Shown in pieces: positions 29,406 through 39,702 of a stretch of DNA of 64,000 nucleotides. Position 1 is the stretch's first letter. The number at the start of each line of letters is the position of its first letter. The position numbers and the translations under genes are program-made. Source of the DNA: a virus; IMG/VR virus record IMGVR_UViG_3300025646_000031, positions 1 through 64,000 of that record; one strand, 5' to 3'. The notes beneath the pieces are model-generated. The model did not search any database. It had not been told where the DNA came from and saw only the letters and a program-made list of their open reading frames with translations.

Positions 29406-31418
29406 ATGGCAACTCAAAAAAAATTCATTGCAGACCTAGGATTTGAAACTCCAAGTGATTTGACTGTAAATGGTAATGCAACCATTGATGGAAATGCAAC
29501 TGTAACAGGAAATCTTACTGTTAACGGAACATCAACCACAGTTAACTCAACCACTACATCTGTAACAGACTCAATGATTGAGCTTGCGAATGCGAATACA
29601 GGTTCAGATACACTTGATATTGGTATATACGGAAACTATGATGATGGTTTATCAGATGGTGGTGCAAGTGAATACACAGGTTTATTCAGAGATGCTTCAG
29701 ACTCAACTTGGAAACTCTTTGATGGTTTAGAAGAAGAACCTACCACAACAGTCAATACAGCAGGAACAGGTTACGCAAAAGCAGCCTTAGAAGTTGGCGA
29801 TCTATCTTGTACTACACTTACTGCAACTAACAGTCTTACAGGTGCAAGTATTACCTACCCAACCTCAGACGGCACTGCTGGACAGTTTTTACAAACTGAT
29901 GGAAGTGGAACATTATCATTTACTTCTGTTACAAGTTATTCTGATTCAGATGTAGAATCATACTTAGATGGTGGAACATCAACCCCTATTTTAGCAAATG
30001 CAACATTTGGTGGAATGAAACTTTTAAACCAAGCGGGCGGTGGTTCTATAGGATTAAATAGAGACCCTGCTGATGGCAATTATGTTGGTTCTGCAAGTTT
30101 ACAAAGATTCCAAATCAACGGCCCACAAAGTGGTTCAGACTTTTTAGATTTTCAATCTTATAACAGCAGTGGAACATATACAGGAAGTTTTTATCTAAAT
30201 GCTGGCAAGCTTGGTATAGGCACAAACGCTCCTGACGATTTGCTTCATGTCTATGCAGGAAATTCAGGAGCTACACCACATAGTCTCTCAGCAATGAATA
30301 TTGAAAGTAGTTCAGATGTTGCAATGAATTTCCTAACTCCAAATACATCTCAAGCACAAATAAGATTTGCAGACCCACAAGACGATGGAAAAGGCATTAT
30401 TGGTTATAATCACAATGGTGATTACATGTTTTTTGCAACCAATGGGCCTGAGAAAATGAGACTAAATTCTGACGGAAATCTCGGCGTTGGTATATCTACC
30501 ATAGAACAACTCGGTTCAGATAGTGTATACCCAAGAATACAATCATATAGTTCCGATACATCAGGACATTTCTGTGGATTGATGATTGGTCGTCCTAATT
30601 CACCAGGACTTGAATCATCAATGGCATTTACTGTTGGCGGAATTATGGTTGGAAAGATACAACATGACTATGTTGCAGAAAATCATAACGATATGTCATT
30701 TCACCTTAGAGGTTCTTCAGGAGGTGGAGATATAGAGGTAATGAGACTGTGGGCTGGTTCAGGTAATGATACAGCTTTATTGGTAGGTAGAACAACAAGG
30801 TCTTGGGCTAATGCAGCTTTAGAAGTAGAAAGTAATGCAAGAATAGGAAACATATACCTAACTGGTAGTGGTTCAGACAGCACAATATCAGCAGGTAATG
30901 CAAGCTATAAATTTAGCACAGCAACTGTAAATTGTGGTGCAACTGATTTAGATTTTGATGTAAATGTTGTAGTAACTGGTGTAGGAATCGCAAATAGATT
31001 TAAAGTTGATTCCCCAACTGGTGATACATATACAAATGATGGAACAATATCCTCATTATCAGATATAAGAGTTAAAACAGATATAAATGATTTGACAGAT
31101 GGTCTTGAAATAGTAAAACAATTAAGGCCAGTTACTTTTAAATATAACGATAATTCAACAGATGATGATGGAAATGGTATGTTGGCAGCTGCAGACGATA
31201 AAATTCGTTATGGATTTATTGCACAAGAGGTAGAAGAAGTTGCTCCTCATTATGTAGAAACATCAACAAGAAAAATAAACAATGAAGAAGTTAATGATTT
31301 TAAATCTTTATCAACAACAAGAATGATACCTATGTTATTTAAAGCCATCCAAGAACAACAAACCATCATTGAAGACCTCAAAGCAAGAATAGAAACATTA
31401 GAGAACGCAAATTCGTAA
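29406..31418 (+). CDS. Tail fibre with C-terminal S74 intramolecular chaperone
   Basis: 670 residues. The N-terminal shaft contains 'LTVNGNATIDGNATVTGNLT' and the shared 'VNSTTTSVTDSMIEL' module. Residues 552-670 form a Peptidase_S74 (endosialidase-type) chaperone: 'SDIRVKTDINDLTDGLEIVK', 'LRPVTFKYN', 'YGFIAQEVEEVAPHYV', and a terminal coiled coil 'EQQTIIEDLKARIETLEN'. The catalytic dyad would be Ser552 and Lys557. The family trimerises the fibre, then cuts itself off before Ser, leaving a mature shaft of about 551 residues. Host recognition is the likely role. Confidence 0.88.
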   Translation: MATQKKFIADLGFETPSDLTVNGNATIDGNATVTGNLTVNGTSTTVNSTTTSVTDSMIELANANTGSDTLDIGIYGNYDDGLSDGGASEYTGLFRDASDSTWKLFDGLEEEPTTTVNTAGTGYAKAALEVGDLSCTTLTATNSLTGASITYPTSDGTAGQFLQTDGSGTLSFTSVTSYSDSDVESYLDGGTSTPILANATFGGMKLLNQAGGGSIGLNRDPADGNYVGSASLQRFQINGPQSGSDFLDFQSYNSSGTYTGSFYLNAGKLGIGTNAPDDLLHVYAGNSGATPHSLSAMNIESSSDVAMNFLTPNTSQAQIRFADPQDDGKGIIGYNHNGDYMFFATNGPEKMRLNSDGNLGVGISTIEQLGSDSVYPRIQSYSSDTSGHFCGLMIGRPNSPGLESSMAFTVGGIMVGKIQHDYVAENHNDMSFHLRGSSGGGDIEVMRLWAGSGNDTALLVGRTTRSWANAALEVESNARIGNIYLTGSGSDSTISAGNASYKFSTATVNCGATDLDFDVNVVVTGVGIANRFKVDSPTGDTYTNDGTISSLSDIRVKTDINDLTDGLEIVKQLRPVTFKYNDNSTDDDGNGMLAAADDKIRYGFIAQEVEEVAPHYVETSTRKINNEEVNDFKSLSTTRMIPMLFKAIQEQQTIIEDLKARIETLENANS

Positions 31419-33242: not shown

Positions 33243-34508
33243 ATGGTAACAGGTAATCAAAAGGTTAAGACCCCTACTGGTTGGAATTCCACGCAAGGTG
33301 CATGGGTTAAAACAGGTGCTACTACTTGGAAAGCAGTAGAACAAATCTATGTAAAAACGCCTACTGGTTGGAACAACGCTTCAGGTCAAGCATTAACACA
33401 ACAACCATATCCTTATATAGCGAATGCTCAACAACCTTATATTGCTAATGCACAGCAACCTTATCCATATATAGCAAACGCCCAGCAACCTTATATCGCT
33501 AACGCTCAACAGCCTTATCCCTATATAGCGAATGCTCAGACACCCTATATCGCTAACGCTCAACAGCCTTATCCGTATATAGCAAACAGTCAGACACCAT
33601 TCACATATCAAGCGAGGTCACCGTTTACATATAGTAATAGATATCCTGCAAATGCTCAGCAACCTTACATTGCAAACAGTCAGACTCCATTTACATATAA
33701 TAATAGATCGCCGTTTACATATAGTGCAAGATATCCTGCTAACGCTCAACAACCTTATATTGCAAACGCAAGACAACCGTTTACATATAATAATAGATCA
33801 CCGTTTACATATAATGCAAGATATCCTGCTAACGCACAGCAACCGTACATAGCTAATGCTAGACAACCTGGCACATATCAGGTTCCTTTCAGTTATCGTG
33901 TTCCATACATCGCTAACGCTAGACAACCTGGCACATATCAAGTACCGTTTTCTTATCGAGTGCCTTATATTGCGAATGCTCAACAACCATTTACATATAG
34001 TTTTAGATTTCCATTCCTTTATCAATCAGCATTCCAGAAATTTGGATTTCAGGGTTGTTTCTTATGTTGTGTACATGATACTATGTTGGTGGCAACTGAG
34101 GAAGATATGAAAAGTATTTACGATTTAAATATAGGTGATAAAGTCATTTCACATAATTTTGAAACTGGACAAGATGAAGTAGTAGAAATAACCGATATCG
34201 TAATTGTTGATAGAGATGTAGATTACAAAGTCAACGATCTGATTATGACAGAAGACCATCCAGTTTACTTAGAGGGTGGCAGAAAAGCTTCAGTAAATCC
34301 TGATGCAACACTTTTAAACTACAAGCAAGAAGTTGATCAGTTAGTTGTTGGTGATAAAATGATGAAACTTGATGGTTCATTAGAAGAAATTACTTCTATA
34401 GAACATTATGAGGGAAATCATAAAAACTTTGCAGTTCAAACCAAGTATAATAATTTCTACGCAAATGGACATTTGGTAGATTCAGTCATTGATAGAGGTA
34501 ATAACTAA
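33243..34508 (+). CDS. Tyr/Pro/Gln repeat protein C with C-terminal Hint domain
   Basis: 421 residues. Residues 1-50 hold two Trp hairpins ('VKTPTGWNSTQGAWVKTG', 'VEQIYVKTPTGWNNA'). Residues 52-260 are repeat units, first 'NAQQPYIA'/'NAQQPYPYIA', then 'NNRSPFTY' and 'QPGTYQVPFSYRVPYIA'. Residues 266-276 are hydrophobic with Cys272, Cys275 and Cys276. Residues 276-415 fit a Hint (hedgehog/intein) fold: 'CVHDTMLVAT' (block A), 'IYDLNIGDKVISHN', 'MTEDHPVYL' with Thr336 and His339 (block B TxxH), and 'NFAVQTKYNNFYANGHLV' (block F). The intein-type C-terminal His-Asn is absent, so only N-terminal cleavage or acyl transfer at Cys276 would be expected. Ribosome site GAGG. Confidence 0.75.
   Translation: MVTGNQKVKTPTGWNSTQGAWVKTGATTWKAVEQIYVKTPTGWNNASGQALTQQPYPYIANAQQPYIANAQQPYPYIANAQQPYIANAQQPYPYIANAQTPYIANAQQPYPYIANSQTPFTYQARSPFTYSNRYPANAQQPYIANSQTPFTYNNRSPFTYSARYPANAQQPYIANARQPFTYNNRSPFTYNARYPANAQQPYIANARQPGTYQVPFSYRVPYIANARQPGTYQVPFSYRVPYIANAQQPFTYSFRFPFLYQSAFQKFGFQGCFLCCVHDTMLVATEEDMKSIYDLNIGDKVISHNFETGQDEVVEITDIVIVDRDVDYKVNDLIMTEDHPVYLEGGRKASVNPDATLLNYKQEVDQLVVGDKMMKLDGSLEEITSIEHYEGNHKNFAVQTKYNNFYANGHLVDSVIDRGNN
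33396..34022 (+). repeat. In-frame PYIA/PFTY repeat array
   Basis: Codes residues 52-260 of repeat protein C. A 54-bp period is clear over the first 180 bp. A longer unit containing 'PGTYQVPFSYRVPYIA' is duplicated at about 33865-33965. Confidence 0.8.
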
Positions 34509-35200
34509 TGCCAATAGCTGAAGGACAACAACCAACGATTGGAAATGCTAGGAGCCCTTTCACCTATGAGGCGAGGTATCCAGCGATTGCTTACTATCCT
34601 GCTAACTATCAGAATCCGTTTACTTACGATGCTAGATATCCAGCGATTGCTTTCTATCCTGCTAACTATCAGAATCCGTTTACTTACAATGCTAGGTCGC
34701 CGTTTACTTATCGTGTGCCTTATATAGCAAATGCTCAACAACCATATATAGCTAACGGACAAAACCCATTTACTTATAACGCTAGATCACCGTTTACTTA
34801 TCGAGTGCCTTATATTGCGAATGCTCAACAACCATACATAGCAAACGCTAGACAGCCTGGCACATATAATGCTAGATCACCTTTTACCTATCAGGTTCCA
34901 TACATTGCGAATGCTCAACAACCATACATAGCAAACGCTAGACAACCTGCAACATATCAAGCGCAAGGTAGAACTCCGTTCACATATCAGAACAGACAAC
35001 CTTCTACATATGAAACACAAGGTAGAACTCCGTTCACATATCAGAACAGATCACCGTTCACTTATGCTACACAAGGTAGAACTCCGTTCACATATCAGAA
35101 CAGAACTCCGTTCACTTATGCTACACAAGGTAGAACACCAGTTGCTCGTTGGGATGGTGTGTTGACACAGCAGTGGCCTGCAACACCTGTATCTTCTTAG
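34508..35200 (+). CDS. Tyr/Pro/Gln repeat protein D
   Basis: 230 residues, ATG overlapping the stop of repeat protein C (TAATG). Almost the whole chain is repeat. A duplicated 21-residue unit built on 'RYPAIAYYPANYQNPFTY' (residues about 23-64) comes first. Then come mixed 'VPYIANAQQPYIAN' and 'NARSPFTY' units, then the 8+10 'RTPFTYQN'/'RTPFTYATQG' pattern to residue 210. The short end 'ARWDGVLTQQWPATPVSS' carries two Trp. No processing domain. It is co-expressed with the Hint protein, so it could be its partner or acyl acceptor (inference). Confidence 0.6.
   Translation: MPIAEGQQPTIGNARSPFTYEARYPAIAYYPANYQNPFTYDARYPAIAFYPANYQNPFTYNARSPFTYRVPYIANAQQPYIANGQNPFTYNARSPFTYRVPYIANAQQPYIANARQPGTYNARSPFTYQVPYIANAQQPYIANARQPATYQAQGRTPFTYQNRQPSTYETQGRTPFTYQNRSPFTYATQGRTPFTYQNRTPFTYATQGRTPVARWDGVLTQQWPATPVSS
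34530..35145 (+). repeat. In-frame repeat array with a long direct duplication
   Basis: Includes two copies of a roughly 63-bp segment (about 34573-34635 and 34636-34698) that are almost identical, plus three near-identical 'GTPFTYQN'-type segments at 34975-35130. Such long direct repeats are prone to recombination in replicating phage DNA. Confidence 0.75.
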
Positions 35201-35203
35201 TGA

Positions 35204-35211
35204 TATAAATA
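35204..35211 (+). promoter_or_regulatory. T4-type late promoter
   Basis: Exact TATAAATA, 30 nt before the glycosyltransferase ATG at 35242. Confidence 0.65.
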
Positions 35212-35241
35212 TTATTATTAATCAATAATTTATTATGAAAA

Positions 35242-36840
35242 ATGACAGAGAAAAAAATACCTACTTGGAAAAGAAATCTAATTAGAATTACTTCTGTAGA
35301 AGAAGCAGAACAAATCAAACCATTAGATTATTCAAATAATTCCATTTTTAAATTACGAATGGATTTACCCACCTATCATTTGGGAACTCTATGTATCAAT
35401 CGTTATTCAGATTATAACGAAACTTACAAAATACTGAAGTATCTTTTTGAAAACAAAATCTTACCACCTTTGAAAATTTTTAAATGGGGTGATGTAATTG
35501 CTGATCGAAAAGAAAAAAGATTGGCTTCTTTTAATGGTTTGAATTATCACTCAATGGTCTATAACAGATTTCTACCTCATGGTTGGACATCTAAACCAGA
35601 CCCAAAATATATTGGTGGTATGAATTTCCAATCAATTGATGGTGACGATAAGACCATACATGATTATTGTATGGAAAAAGACGATCCGTACTACAACGAT
35701 CAGGGCTGGTTAACTTCTTTAAATGCTTCTTACTATCATTCTGCTAAAGCACACTGGTTAGTTCATAGTATTCAAAAGGAAGGACTATGGGCGCCTGTTC
35801 AAGGATTGACATCAGGTACAAAAGAACGATACAGTATTTTCGCACATCCAGGTTCTATCAGATCAGCTATTGTAGAAGAGATGCAAGATCCAGATTTAGT
35901 ATGGCATGTTTGGGATTGTGTTGGTGTTATACCAACTGAACCAAAAACAGTTGATGAGTTTCTTCAGTTTTGGAAAGAAGTTTTAAATAAAAAAAATGTA
36001 AAACAAGATGAAATGTCTTTTATAATACAGGCAGGAGCAATTGAAGTACAAACAGATTTAGCAAGTTTAGAGTTTAGAAATGAAATATATGATTTCAATA
36101 AAAAGGTTTCAAAACTTGCAAAGAAAAAACCATTAAACATTTACATTGGTTATGATTCAACACACAATGATATAGAAAAGATTTCAAAATATTCTATAGA
36201 AGAATCTATTAAGAGAAATTTTTCAGGCGGCAATGATGGTAAGTATACACAATTTGTTCCTGAAATAAAAATGCTTGACATTTCTAAGATTCCAGAATAT
36301 ACTAGACCTTATGCAAATCAAAATACAGAGTTTACTTATAGTAGATTTTTAATTCCGTATTTAGAAAATTATGAAGGATTTAGCATCTTTGTAGATGATG
36401 ATTTCATCTTTAATAAAACTATATTGTCATTGTTATATTACTTACATCCAGATGATGCAGTTGCATGTATTCAATATCCACAATACAAACATGATAACAC
36501 TAAATTTGTTGGTGCAGTTAACATAGATTATCCAAGAAAACTATGGTCTAGTATGATGGTCTTTAATAATGGACATGAAGACTGCAAAAAACTAACACCT
36601 GAAACAATAAATACTTGGACAGGAAAACAGTTACATCAATTTGAATGGACTGAAAAGATCAGTAAGATACCTGAAAAATATATCTTTACTGAAGGTTATG
36701 ATGATCCTGAAACTAAGTGGGATGTTTCAGGTTATCATTATACAAGAGGTGGTCCTTGGATTGACGATATGGACTGTTCAAAAATTTCTAGGTTAGAAGT
36801 TTATGAAAAATTTAAAACGCTTTATGAAAGTGAGAGGTAA
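35242..36840 (+). CDS. Two-domain protein with C-terminal glycosyltransferase
   Basis: 532 residues. The C-terminal half (about 295-532) reads as a GT-A-type transferase: 'LNIYIGYDSTHNDIEKISKY', 'TEFTYSRFLIPYLENYEGFS', the metal-binding acidic triad 'IFVDDDFIF', 'YPRKLWSSMMVFNNGH' and 'GKQLHQFEWTEKI'. The N-terminal half (about 1-290) has 'HWLVHSIQKEGLWAPVQGLT' and 'FAHPGSIRSAIVEEMQDPDL', reminiscent of ParB-like or host-linked domains, unassigned. Acceptor and sugar are unknown. It follows the repeat genes directly, so virion protein or DNA are possible acceptors. Its own late promoter makes structural targets more likely (inference). Confidence 0.7.
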   Translation: MTEKKIPTWKRNLIRITSVEEAEQIKPLDYSNNSIFKLRMDLPTYHLGTLCINRYSDYNETYKILKYLFENKILPPLKIFKWGDVIADRKEKRLASFNGLNYHSMVYNRFLPHGWTSKPDPKYIGGMNFQSIDGDDKTIHDYCMEKDDPYYNDQGWLTSLNASYYHSAKAHWLVHSIQKEGLWAPVQGLTSGTKERYSIFAHPGSIRSAIVEEMQDPDLVWHVWDCVGVIPTEPKTVDEFLQFWKEVLNKKNVKQDEMSFIIQAGAIEVQTDLASLEFRNEIYDFNKKVSKLAKKKPLNIYIGYDSTHNDIEKISKYSIEESIKRNFSGGNDGKYTQFVPEIKMLDISKIPEYTRPYANQNTEFTYSRFLIPYLENYEGFSIFVDDDFIFNKTILSLLYYLHPDDAVACIQYPQYKHDNTKFVGAVNIDYPRKLWSSMMVFNNGHEDCKKLTPETINTWTGKQLHQFEWTEKISKIPEKYIFTEGYDDPETKWDVSGYHYTRGGPWIDDMDCSKISRLEVYEKFKTLYESER

Positions 36841-36846
36841 AATAAA

Positions 36847-37413
36847 ATGAATATGAATACAGTGAATGCACTTGTGTATTGTGAAAACTCAAATCTCTAT
36901 ATTAGAAAACCTAATGGTTTAGAATATCAATTTGATAATGTTGATGCTCCTGCATTGGGTTTTGACTTTGATGTTTTAATCTACGAAGATGGATTAGAAA
37001 CAAAGATATTAAAATGGAACGATGGTAAACCATTGCAGGAACAAGAACAATTTCCTTTATCAGACAATGAAAAGGACATGATTGAAACTTATATTGCAAA
37101 TTCAGAACCGCCTGAAGGTGTCACTTTACAAAGACAATATGTTGAAAGATTAGAAAAAATTGCCGATGAATATGTCGACAGGTATATGTATCAACATAAT
37201 TTTCGTGATTTAAACAAAGTTGTAGCAATTGGTAGAGAAGGATCAAATCATCCAAATAGATCAGATGCTAGAAGAGTATTGGAGTATTTTGATGCAGTTT
37301 CAACTGTATTCATACAGGTTGTAGATCAAATCTATTCTTGTAGAGAAGATATGTTAAAAGAATTCAGAGAATATGAAGTTCTTCTTCCTACTATTGTTAA
37401 TCAATATGAATAA
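36847..37413 (+). CDS. Unknown protein
   Basis: 188 residues, 6 nt after the glycosyltransferase stop, ribosome site GAGAGG. The N-terminal half looks beta ('LVYCENSNLYIRKPNGLEYQ'). 'QFPLSDNEKDMIETYIANSE' and the Tyr/Arg-rich helices up to 'YRYM'-like text (actual 'VDRYMYQHNF') follow, with an acidic C-terminal helix. I do not recognise it. It overlaps the oxygenase gene by 8 nt, so the two are probably translated together. Confidence 0.6.
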   Translation: MNMNTVNALVYCENSNLYIRKPNGLEYQFDNVDAPALGFDFDVLIYEDGLETKILKWNDGKPLQEQEQFPLSDNEKDMIETYIANSEPPEGVTLQRQYVERLEKIADEYVDRYMYQHNFRDLNKVVAIGREGSNHPNRSDARRVLEYFDAVSTVFIQVVDQIYSCREDMLKEFREYEVLLPTIVNQYE

Positions 37414-38155
37414 AGAACTAGATGTAGTTCTAATAGATAAACCATTTGATATAAAAGAACTACCCCTAAAATCAGTTTATGTTTTAGATGATTGGTTGTG
37501 TGATTCATTACACCATTATTTTGATAATTGGGTAACAAAAAACCAAATATGGGCAAAAACAAATCAAGTAGATTCACATAGTAAAACTGGTTTACCACAT
37601 CATAGTTTTTGGGGTACATCCTTCTTAAGAGACGATTTTCAATCAGAGCCTGGTATTGGGAAAGAAAATACCTTTTTTGTTAAATACATAATAAGAAGAT
37701 TACAAACAGAGTTTAGTTTTAAATGGACCAGATTTCAGTATGCTGGCATGAATTCCCAAACAGTAGGTTTACACGGCACAACACATTCGGATTGTCAAGA
37801 TGAAGATGATTGGAATCTATCATTTCTATACTATACAAATAGATATTGGAACCCTAAATGGGGTGGTAAATTAAGATTGTATGATAAAGTTGTTCAGTCG
37901 CCTGAACATGATGATATGATGCAAGGTGTACACGGCAGAACAGAACACATTAAAAACTATCAAATTGCAGAAGTGGATTTCAAACCTAATAGGCTTGTAA
38001 TGTTTGATGGTAGAATACCTCACGGAGCTGATGCTCCAAATGAAAGCGCTAAATACATGGATAGAAGATCGCTAGTGATAAGAGGCGATGAAGTTAGACT
38101 AATTAAAGATAAAAAAGAGTTTTATAATGCCAACGATAGAGTTCACTTGTTATAA
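37406..38155 (+). CDS. 2OG-Fe(II) oxygenase (prolyl-hydroxylase-like)
   Basis: 249 residues from the ATG at 37406; an in-frame ATG at 37373 lies deep in the previous gene. Iron-binding His127 and Asp129 ('GLHGTTHSDC'), strand 'WNLSFLYYTNRYWNPKWGGK', then distal His206 ('DGRIPHGADAP') and Arg220/Arg221 for 2-oxoglutarate form the complete double-stranded beta-helix set. The family hydroxylates protein, nucleic acid or small-molecule substrates. Substrate unknown. It overlaps both neighbours. Confidence 0.82.
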   Translation: MNKELDVVLIDKPFDIKELPLKSVYVLDDWLCDSLHHYFDNWVTKNQIWAKTNQVDSHSKTGLPHHSFWGTSFLRDDFQSEPGIGKENTFFVKYIIRRLQTEFSFKWTRFQYAGMNSQTVGLHGTTHSDCQDEDDWNLSFLYYTNRYWNPKWGGKLRLYDKVVQSPEHDDMMQGVHGRTEHIKNYQIAEVDFKPNRLVMFDGRIPHGADAPNESAKYMDRRSLVIRGDEVRLIKDKKEFYNANDRVHLL

Positions 38156-39014
38156 TTCTGATACAGTAAAGTATTTTAAACCTGTACTTGCTAAAACTGT
38201 TTTACCAGATTGGTGGAAAACCATGAAGATACAGGAAATGACAAGATTTACAAAACAACATACAATACGATCCTGCCCAGCGATGGACGATTGGGTGAAA
38301 TCTGGTTGGTATCTAGTTGCAAATAAAGATATAAGAGTCATTTGCGGAAAAGATAGAGATGGACAAGATACAGATAGTGAAAGTTATTCAACTGAAGATA
38401 CGGAAGGAACTGGTTATTCATCGCCTCCACATCCAAGAGAACAATTTGGCAATGTATTCAATTTCTTAGGAAAAAATAGAGCACCTATTAGAGATGCTTT
38501 TAAGATGAAGAATCCTTGGAATGTAATCACACCAAAGGGATATTCTTGTTTTTATATAGATCCATTTTTACATCAAAACGAATTCTTTGCAACTTGGCCT
38601 GGCATTATAGATACAGACAAGTTTAATAAAAATATGGACAATGCACAAATCATTTTTTATCCTAAGGTAGATCATTCATTCACGATTTTAAAAGGCACGC
38701 CATTATGTCAGATCATTCCTTTTAAGAGAGAGGAATGGGTTGCAAGTTATCAATTTAGAGATGTAAATGATTACATTAAAAATTTATCTCATATAACTTC
38801 GGAACAAAAAAATATGGATGAAAGACCTATGATAGAACACAAAAGAATGGCGCCAGATACAAATATTTTTAAAGCAGGACCTTATCGTAAACATGGATAT
38901 TGGAGTGAAAAGGGCCAATATTTCAAGGAAGAAAGTCCACCACCTGAATGTCCTTTTCATAAAAAAGAAGAAAGTTCAGAGATACAATTGGAGTTTGATT
39001 TCAATGGCAGTTAG
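38127..39014 (+). CDS. DUF6065-like conserved phage protein
   Basis: 295 residues, overlapping the upstream oxygenase by 29 nt. 'LAKTVLPDWWKTM' at the N-terminus, 'KNPWNVITPKGYSCFYIDPF' and 'TWPGIIDTDKFN' in the middle, and 'ILKGTPLCQIIPFKREEW' match the pattern I associate with DUF6065, which is often found beside phage oxygenases. The core looks like a beta-barrel. The C-terminus has a Cys/His pair ('PPPECPFHKKEE'). Biochemical function unknown. Confidence 0.6.
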   Translation: MPTIEFTCYNSDTVKYFKPVLAKTVLPDWWKTMKIQEMTRFTKQHTIRSCPAMDDWVKSGWYLVANKDIRVICGKDRDGQDTDSESYSTEDTEGTGYSSPPHPREQFGNVFNFLGKNRAPIRDAFKMKNPWNVITPKGYSCFYIDPFLHQNEFFATWPGIIDTDKFNKNMDNAQIIFYPKVDHSFTILKGTPLCQIIPFKREEWVASYQFRDVNDYIKNLSHITSEQKNMDERPMIEHKRMAPDTNIFKAGPYRKHGYWSEKGQYFKEESPPPECPFHKKEESSEIQLEFDFNGS

Positions 39015-39702
39015 GTTATTATTTCCAACATTCATTTTTCATAGAAATCTCTTAGATAAGAATTTACCTGAAGATAGAGGTATTACAAAGGAGTATTTAA
39101 ATCTACTTAAACTAGAAATGGATAGTATGAGAAAAAATGATCCTAAGGGACGACAAATCTCTAATGCATATACAGGTTGGCAGTCAAATGATGGGTGTGA
39201 GAAAAGTCCAATATTTAAGAAGTTAATGCACTGTATTCAAATGGCTTTTTATGATGAAGTCTGGCCTTTTCATGGTGTTCAAAGAAAGGACATTACTTGT
39301 TTTGTGGGCAATTCGTGGGCAAACATCAATGATCGTTTAGCATGGAACAGACCTCATACTCACAATGGTTGTTGGTATAGTGGAGTATTCTATGTTAGAG
39401 CAGATGGTGATGAGGGTGATATAAATTTCATAGATACTGATTCTAAAGTTGTTTCAGATTATCCTGCAAGCTCTAGAACATGCACTAGTTGGAACTTTGC
39501 ACCAAGATCAGGAGAATTGATTTTATTTCCTAGTGGTCTAATGCATATGGTAGAACCCAATATAACAGATAAAGATAGATATAGTATCTCTTTCAATTTA
39601 GTACATGATGTTAGAGGCAATTTGCATGGTCATATTGAGAACTATAATGAGAATGAATTTGTTTTTAATTTAAACGAAAAGGGTGATCCCATACTGAACT
39701 AG
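39004..39702 (+). CDS. 2OG-Fe(II) oxygenase (2OG-FeII_Oxy_5 type)
   Basis: 232 residues from the ATG at 39004, overlapping the previous gene by 11 nt. 'SWANINDRLAWNRPHTHNGC' with His118/His120, 'SGVFYVRADGDEG', 'GELILFPSGLMHMVEPN' with His181, and Arg192 ('DRYSISFNL') give the oxygenase core of the family widespread in marine T4-like phages. Substrate unknown. It is the second oxygenase within 1.6 kb and the last gene before a promoter variant. Confidence 0.85.
   Translation: MAVRLLFPTFIFHRNLLDKNLPEDRGITKEYLNLLKLEMDSMRKNDPKGRQISNAYTGWQSNDGCEKSPIFKKLMHCIQMAFYDEVWPFHGVQRKDITCFVGNSWANINDRLAWNRPHTHNGCWYSGVFYVRADGDEGDINFIDTDSKVVSDYPASSRTCTSWNFAPRSGELILFPSGLMHMVEPNITDKDRYSISFNLVHDVRGNLHGHIENYNENEFVFNLNEKGDPILN

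Follow-up and report, generated by a model that had tools for sequence, protein, structure and literature searches.

A Hint domain shared by tail-region proteins of uncultured phages as a putative self-removing C-terminal module

Hint domains of phages are familiar as inteins residing in replication and packaging enzymes. Intein chemistry begins with an N-S acyl shift, followed by Asn cyclisation, and the same thioester is used by Hedgehog proteins for the attachment of cholesterol (PMC7664689). Two further members of the superfamily come close to the domain described here. B-type BIL domains keep the intein motifs except for the C-terminal one, and N-terminal cleavage has been reported for them (PMC7765530), while BIL2, the closest solved structure, links a ubiquitin-like domain to other proteins through isopeptide bonds (PMC8616854).

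The window, that is the whole 64-kb stretch of DNA analysed (positions 1-64,000 of the IMG/VR record IMGVR_UViG_3300025646_000031), comes from a marine phage. By its gene content this phage is T4-like, as an earlier note made from the sequence had already held: genes for a tube cap, a baseplate wedge, a sheath and a scaffold are present, and the ORF of interest, with a ribosome-binding-like GTGAGGATAA 5' of its ATG, is located in this structural region (Table 1). The same note described Tyr/Pro/Gln repeats that run into a Cys cluster and a terminal Hint-like domain, and this layout is borne out by the ORF list and a motif count. The short N-terminal part carries two VKTPTGWN-like motifs, which are followed by a repeat region of about 210 residues with 19 P-[YF]-[IT]-[AY] units (among them PYIAN 12 times and PFTY 7 times in the N-terminal part). 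The gene neighbourhood is compatible with the labels 'adhesin' and 'virion protein' for this candidate.

Table 1. Coordinates in the window of the repeat-Hint gene, its parts and its neighbours.
Feature	Position	Strand	Basis
ORF of 421 residues, repeat region and C-terminal Hint domain	33243..34508	+	ORF list; family conservation
Tyr/Pro/Gln/Ala/Asn repeat region, residues 51-262	33393..34028	+	motif count
CxxCC cluster, residues 272-276 (Cys at -4, -1, +1)	34056..34070	+	subfamily comparison
Hint domain, Cys276 to Ser414 (about 140 residues), ends the protein	34068..34484	+	AlphaFold model, PDB matches, profile
Cys276, predicted block A nucleophile, intein residue 1	34068..34070	+	alignment; structure match
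Block B, T336-E-D-H339	34248..34259	+	alignment
Ser414 at the position of the intein terminal Asn	34482..34484	+	alignment; structure match
Tail fibre with C-terminal Peptidase_S74 chaperone domain	29406..31418	+	PF13884 E 7.7e-17; PHROG tail fibre
Repeat protein D, same repeats, without Hint	34508..35200	+	ORF list
Glycosyltransferase-like protein, weak GT8 match	35242..36840	+	Pfam E 0.0027, below cut-off
2OG-Fe(II) oxygenase	37373..38155	+	PF13640 32.5 bits, above cut-off
2OG-Fe(II) oxygenase	38893..39702	+	PF13759 73 bits, above cut-off

The window sequence alone matched four Pfam Hint families, each below threshold, and as it stays under every Pfam Hint cut-off, relatives and structure were required to prove the identity of the domain. 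A search of NCBIfam with the window Hint domain yielded no match. Two relatives (L110 and L032) do exceed the Pfam PT-HINT cut-off, and a family profile built from 31 relatives found the solved chain of the NrdJ-1 intein at an E-value of 1.6e-9 and recovered BIL2 at 2e-6. The AlphaFold model of the window domain (pLDDT 85.9) matched BIL2 best (6y75: Foldseek E 1.5e-11, TM 0.80; 6tmm: Z 21.6, rmsd 1.9 over 145 residues, about 21% identity); inteins and Hedgehog were next, with Z from 18 to 13, many intein chains being above 15 and Hedgehog 1at0 at 16.4. In the structure match of the VIA model to the RecA intein, residue 1 of the intein is matched by model residue 9 (Cys276), and its terminal residue, 440, by model residue 147 (Ser414). 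Such matches are far outside chance, and we regard the call as firm: judged by its predicted structure, the last domain of the protein is a true Hint domain. The profile search and structure prediction that the earlier note had named as a check of its Hint assignment thus both came out in its favour, and its positions for block A (Cys276), Thr336/His339 and blocks F and G (about 395-414) agree with the alignment as well as with the structure. The AXH (ataxin-1) Pfam model also matches many Hint domains of the family, that of L111 (4126-6456) above the cut-off, which is likely a cross-match; for the window domain, AXH identity was dropped, as it lies under the AXH cut-off and the structure contradicts it.

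The N-side of the putative active site is preserved throughout. The block-A Cys was found in all 71 aligned members in which that end is present, and block B shows Thr and His in 72 out of 72 and Asp in 71; the three residues Cys, Thr and His do not vary even among members with as little as about 27% identity. On the C-side, the earlier note had remarked on the absence of the C-terminal Asn, and this proved to be a family trait: Ser stands there in 71 of the 72 aligned members and in 88 of 95 in a wider set, and in the window the domain ends the protein, with the chain stopping at 421, 7 residues past Ser414. Among the 95 members, the last two residues of the domain are HS (70), DS (12), SS (4), NS (2) or others (7), Asp413-Ser414 being the version of the window's group, in which Asp takes the place of the penultimate His. 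Terminal HN is kept by a single relative, L110, where one Lys follows. All 95 chains stop 0-15 residues past block G, and there is no C-extein. When aligned with NrdJ-1, the block-F Asp position is occupied by Ala397 in the window and by Thr in 66 of 72 members, and the block-F His position by Asn403 (Asn in 66 and Asp in 6 of the 72). With Ser in place of the terminal Asn and no C-extein, only the N-side thioester step, the N-S acyl shift, should remain. The dN/dS ratio of the window domain against six relatives was 0.05-0.14, which indicates strong purifying selection and, therefore, a domain that is maintained.

The triad C272-x-x-C275-C276 is invariant in the window's own subfamily and missing from the rest of the Hint family. 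Redox-trapped inteins exist, and by analogy with them the cluster may be a putative redox gate.

Relatives were collected in four scans, of which the first gave 8 close ones, the second one relative at 51%, the third 84 matching stretches and the fourth 137; all of them come from uncultured viral contigs. The same Hint domain ends unrelated tail-region proteins in about 100 uncultured phage contigs, and the 12 records that were searched whole contain exactly one copy each. Its N-terminal partners vary and include the following. Tyr/Pro repeats stand ahead of the Hint Cys in the window, L001 and L002; in another phage group (L105, L106, L111) some 600 residues of Tyr/Asn/Gly repeats hold this place, and at 58 loci forming one cluster a 200-residue beta domain does. 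The partner in L014 (2941-4239) is a tail assembly protein of the lambda gpI type (PHROG E 1e-39), the gene of which is flanked by JAB/NlpC (gpK-like) and Phage-tail_3 (gpJ-like) genes, and in L108 the domain is carried by a protein of 1272 residues. A tail-fibre cluster protein is encoded within a few genes at 70 of 98 Hint loci, mostly one to three genes upstream, and another group of loci has a tail-sheath-like protein just downstream. Judged from these varied partners, the Hint tail is a mobile module common to many kinds of phage tail-region protein.

Some details of these loci deserve mention. In L105 (4168-6450), L106 (4168-6450) and L111 (4126-6456) the repeats lead through a Gly-rich linker and CC into a Hint domain ending NFYANGVLTY, and the next gene in L105 and L111 encodes a repeat protein without Hint. 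In L107 (4600-6453) and L110 (4567-6456) the domain ends proteins of about 620 residues, the N-terminal part of which has no name. When annotated phages (50,697 records) were searched by tblastn with the window Hint domain, no match was obtained; other family members gave weak matches there, mostly to true inteins in RNR, TerL, RecA-like and helicase genes, besides an unannotated jumbo-phage record and hypothetical proteins of Ruminococcus phages. Bacterial and archaeal genomes contained no Hint relative at the sensitivity used.

The beta domain was also searched alone for homologues. The start is readable in 76, among which Hint is present in 54 and missing from 19 complete ones; the other 3 are truncated by the end of a contig. 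Eighteen Hint-less copies stop near the Hint junction, the 17 aligned ones measuring 193-209 residues as compared to 196-224 before the Cys in Hint-bearing proteins; for example, the Hint-less L142 ends in ...ITGSITFQGGGFAP, where the Hint-bearing L143 reads ...LTGSITFLSGGF immediately before Cys. Gene order is the same around the four Hint-less copies that were looked at in detail. In L161 (3116-3215) the last Hint residues, TILTKNNNFYAGGVLVHSEIGE, are found directly 3' of the stop of the beta-domain gene, a remnant indicating that Hint was deleted there, and in L195 (246-1100) the Hint position is taken by Peptidase_S74 (25.3 bits, cut-off 22). On these comparisons, the beta domain is complete without Hint, and Hint and S74 are able to take the same site. 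Ten Hint-less copies (L141, L142, L146, L149, L155, L157, L159, L160, L163 and L172) have Pro as their last residue, immediately following the Gly-rich linker; in Hint-bearing ones the Cys is preceded by Phe or Leu at this place. A full-length model of L048 showed a fairly confident beta domain and Hint, and a search of a viral library with it returned mainly Hint matches and no name for the beta domain.

The reading we favour, with a probability of roughly 0.6, is that Hint serves as a C-terminal module of a protein from the phage tail-fibre region, is removable by autoprocessing and would free the repeat region at the 275/276 bond. In this scenario, once the protein has folded, Cys276 would convert its peptide bond with residue 275 into a thioester, with Thr336 and His339 assisting, and resolution of this thioester, for which water or a small thiol is the likeliest attacker, would free the repeat region from Hint and leave a new C-terminus at residue 275. 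By analogy, the role of Hint might be like that of the S74 chaperone, which cuts itself from phage fibres after folding. We counted in favour of self-removal the fold, the invariant N-side residues, the C-side loss, the lack of a C-extein, purifying selection and the varied partners, together with the natural beta-domain copies that have no Hint or have S74 instead. What counts against it is that the assisting block-F Asp of inteins is replaced in the window and in most relatives, and that Hint-less copies ending at the junction are equally expected from plain gain or loss of a C-terminal domain. As any domain fusion gives the same boundary, the junction data fit self-removal without proving it, and they cover the beta-domain family, the window's repeat region being outside their scope. 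The near-invariant Ser at the Asn position may have an extra role outside the self-removal account. The earlier note had proposed that the repeat region is either released or attached to an acceptor such as protein D; from what the sequences suggest, release at 275/276 is probable and transfer possible, and the specific idea of D as a lysine acceptor failed.

Covalent attachment is the best surviving alternative, possible but rather doubtful. An acceptor would attack the thioester at residue 275, and the repeats would become ligated, in an ATP-free manner, to another protein of the virion, to a glycan or lipid, or to a small amine. On one hand, the isopeptide bonds made by BIL2 render such a transfer credible, Hedgehog offers a precedent with cholesterol, and, as there is no C-extein, a productive reaction is open to an outside nucleophile only. 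On the other hand, no adduct-recognition region lies past the Hint domain, no single acceptor gene is common to all loci, and the commonest downstream neighbours also adjoin Hint-less copies. Protein D, whose start codon overlaps the stop of the Hint gene (TAATG), lacks both Lys and Cys in the window and in L001, and it is free of Lys in L105 and L111 as well, which excludes a lysine isopeptide to D in these four; it was rejected in this role and is, by composition, a poor acceptor. If transfer were true, virions would have a new way of being assembled covalently, and C-terminal labelling would gain a compact tool. A bolder and, in our opinion, unlikely version sees in the Hint tail an ATP-independent protein ligase of phage tails. 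The domain would convert the C-terminal end of a surface part into a thioester and transfer it to an acceptor within the particle, and the near-invariant Ser might serve as a relay nucleophile; covalent assembly of tail parts in unrelated phages would then rely on an intein-derived reaction.

The surroundings of the gene offer one more lead. Repeat-Hint, repeat, glycosyltransferase and 2OG-Fe(II) oxygenase genes are clustered in two unrelated phage groups, those of the window (33243-39702) and of L111 (4126-9637, where the oxygenase gene precedes that of a GlcNAc-type glycosyltransferase). These parallel clusters make the Pro/Tyr repeats a candidate for hydroxylation and glycosylation, and they may carry both modifications, which we note as a lead only. 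A signal-peptide-like protein, encoded downstream of Hint at a distance of two or three genes in 58 of the 98 loci (e.g. L058, 2169-2552), matches thioredoxin weakly and lacks WCxxC; it was dropped as a Hint partner, since its gene also stands downstream of Hint-less copies.

It is also conceivable, with a rather low probability, that Hint is catalytically silent and stays attached as a folding or assembly domain. Loss of the C-side catalytic residues and of the block-F Asp would agree with this, but the N-side Cys, Thr and His would hardly be invariant among 72 members, and the Hint-less relatives indicate that the domain is dispensable for the fold of its partner. An ordinary intein or pretoxin-type Hint is scarcely credible and already contradicted by the sequence of the locus: intein and PT-HINT Pfam models do match the family, and a few relatives exceed the PT-HINT cut-off, but there is no terminal Asn, no C-extein and no downstream toxin in the chain, and the hosts are tail-region proteins, not conserved enzymes.

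How, then, does the domain compare with the known systems? BIL2 of the Tetrahymena BUBL1 locus has the same fold over almost the whole domain and the same N-side site, but it is eukaryotic, possesses a terminal Asn and a C-extein, is combined with ubiquitin-like domains and shares little sequence identity. The window Hint displays the motif pattern of B-type BIL domains, a likeness by motif pattern alone, and those occur in bacterial proteins. The Hog domain of Hedgehog is likewise C-terminal and relies on the N-S acyl shift with no Asn step; it differs in having a sterol or adduct recognition region after Hint, where the phage chains end shortly past block G, and in using block-F Asp/His for sterol. 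A class 1 intein has a terminal Asn and a +1 Cys/Ser/Thr with a C-extein, an A-type BIL has a C-terminal His-Asn, and PT-HINT has a toxin domain C-terminal to Hint; in the window, Asp413-Ser414 is found and nothing follows but the last few residues. We place the phage domain in the Hint superfamily, and not among inteins, A-type BIL, Hog or pretoxin Hint domains.

In the literature searched, the phage Hint domains were inteins in enzymes, and no T4-like virion protein with this architecture is described, just as the earlier note had maintained. Multi-domain proteins of uncultured Caudovirales in BFVD ('Hint domain containing', 'Fibronectin type III', 'Collagen triple helix') have the Hint fold at 13-22% identity, these being annotations with no function described, so the combination is present in databases without a description. 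What we report is a distinct Hint family with lost C-side residues and Ser for Asn, shuffled as a C-terminal module among several unrelated marine phage groups, and the sequences suggest that phages might use intein chemistry to trim or attach surface proteins. The Peptidase_S74 chaperone, also a C-terminal self-cutting module of phage fibres and found at the same junction in L195, belongs to an unrelated family with unrelated chemistry and is an analogue in role only; its sequence is absent from the 421-residue protein and present in the neighbouring fibre gene. If the proposed cutting is true, Hint would be, beside S74, a second self-removal device for phage tail proteins.
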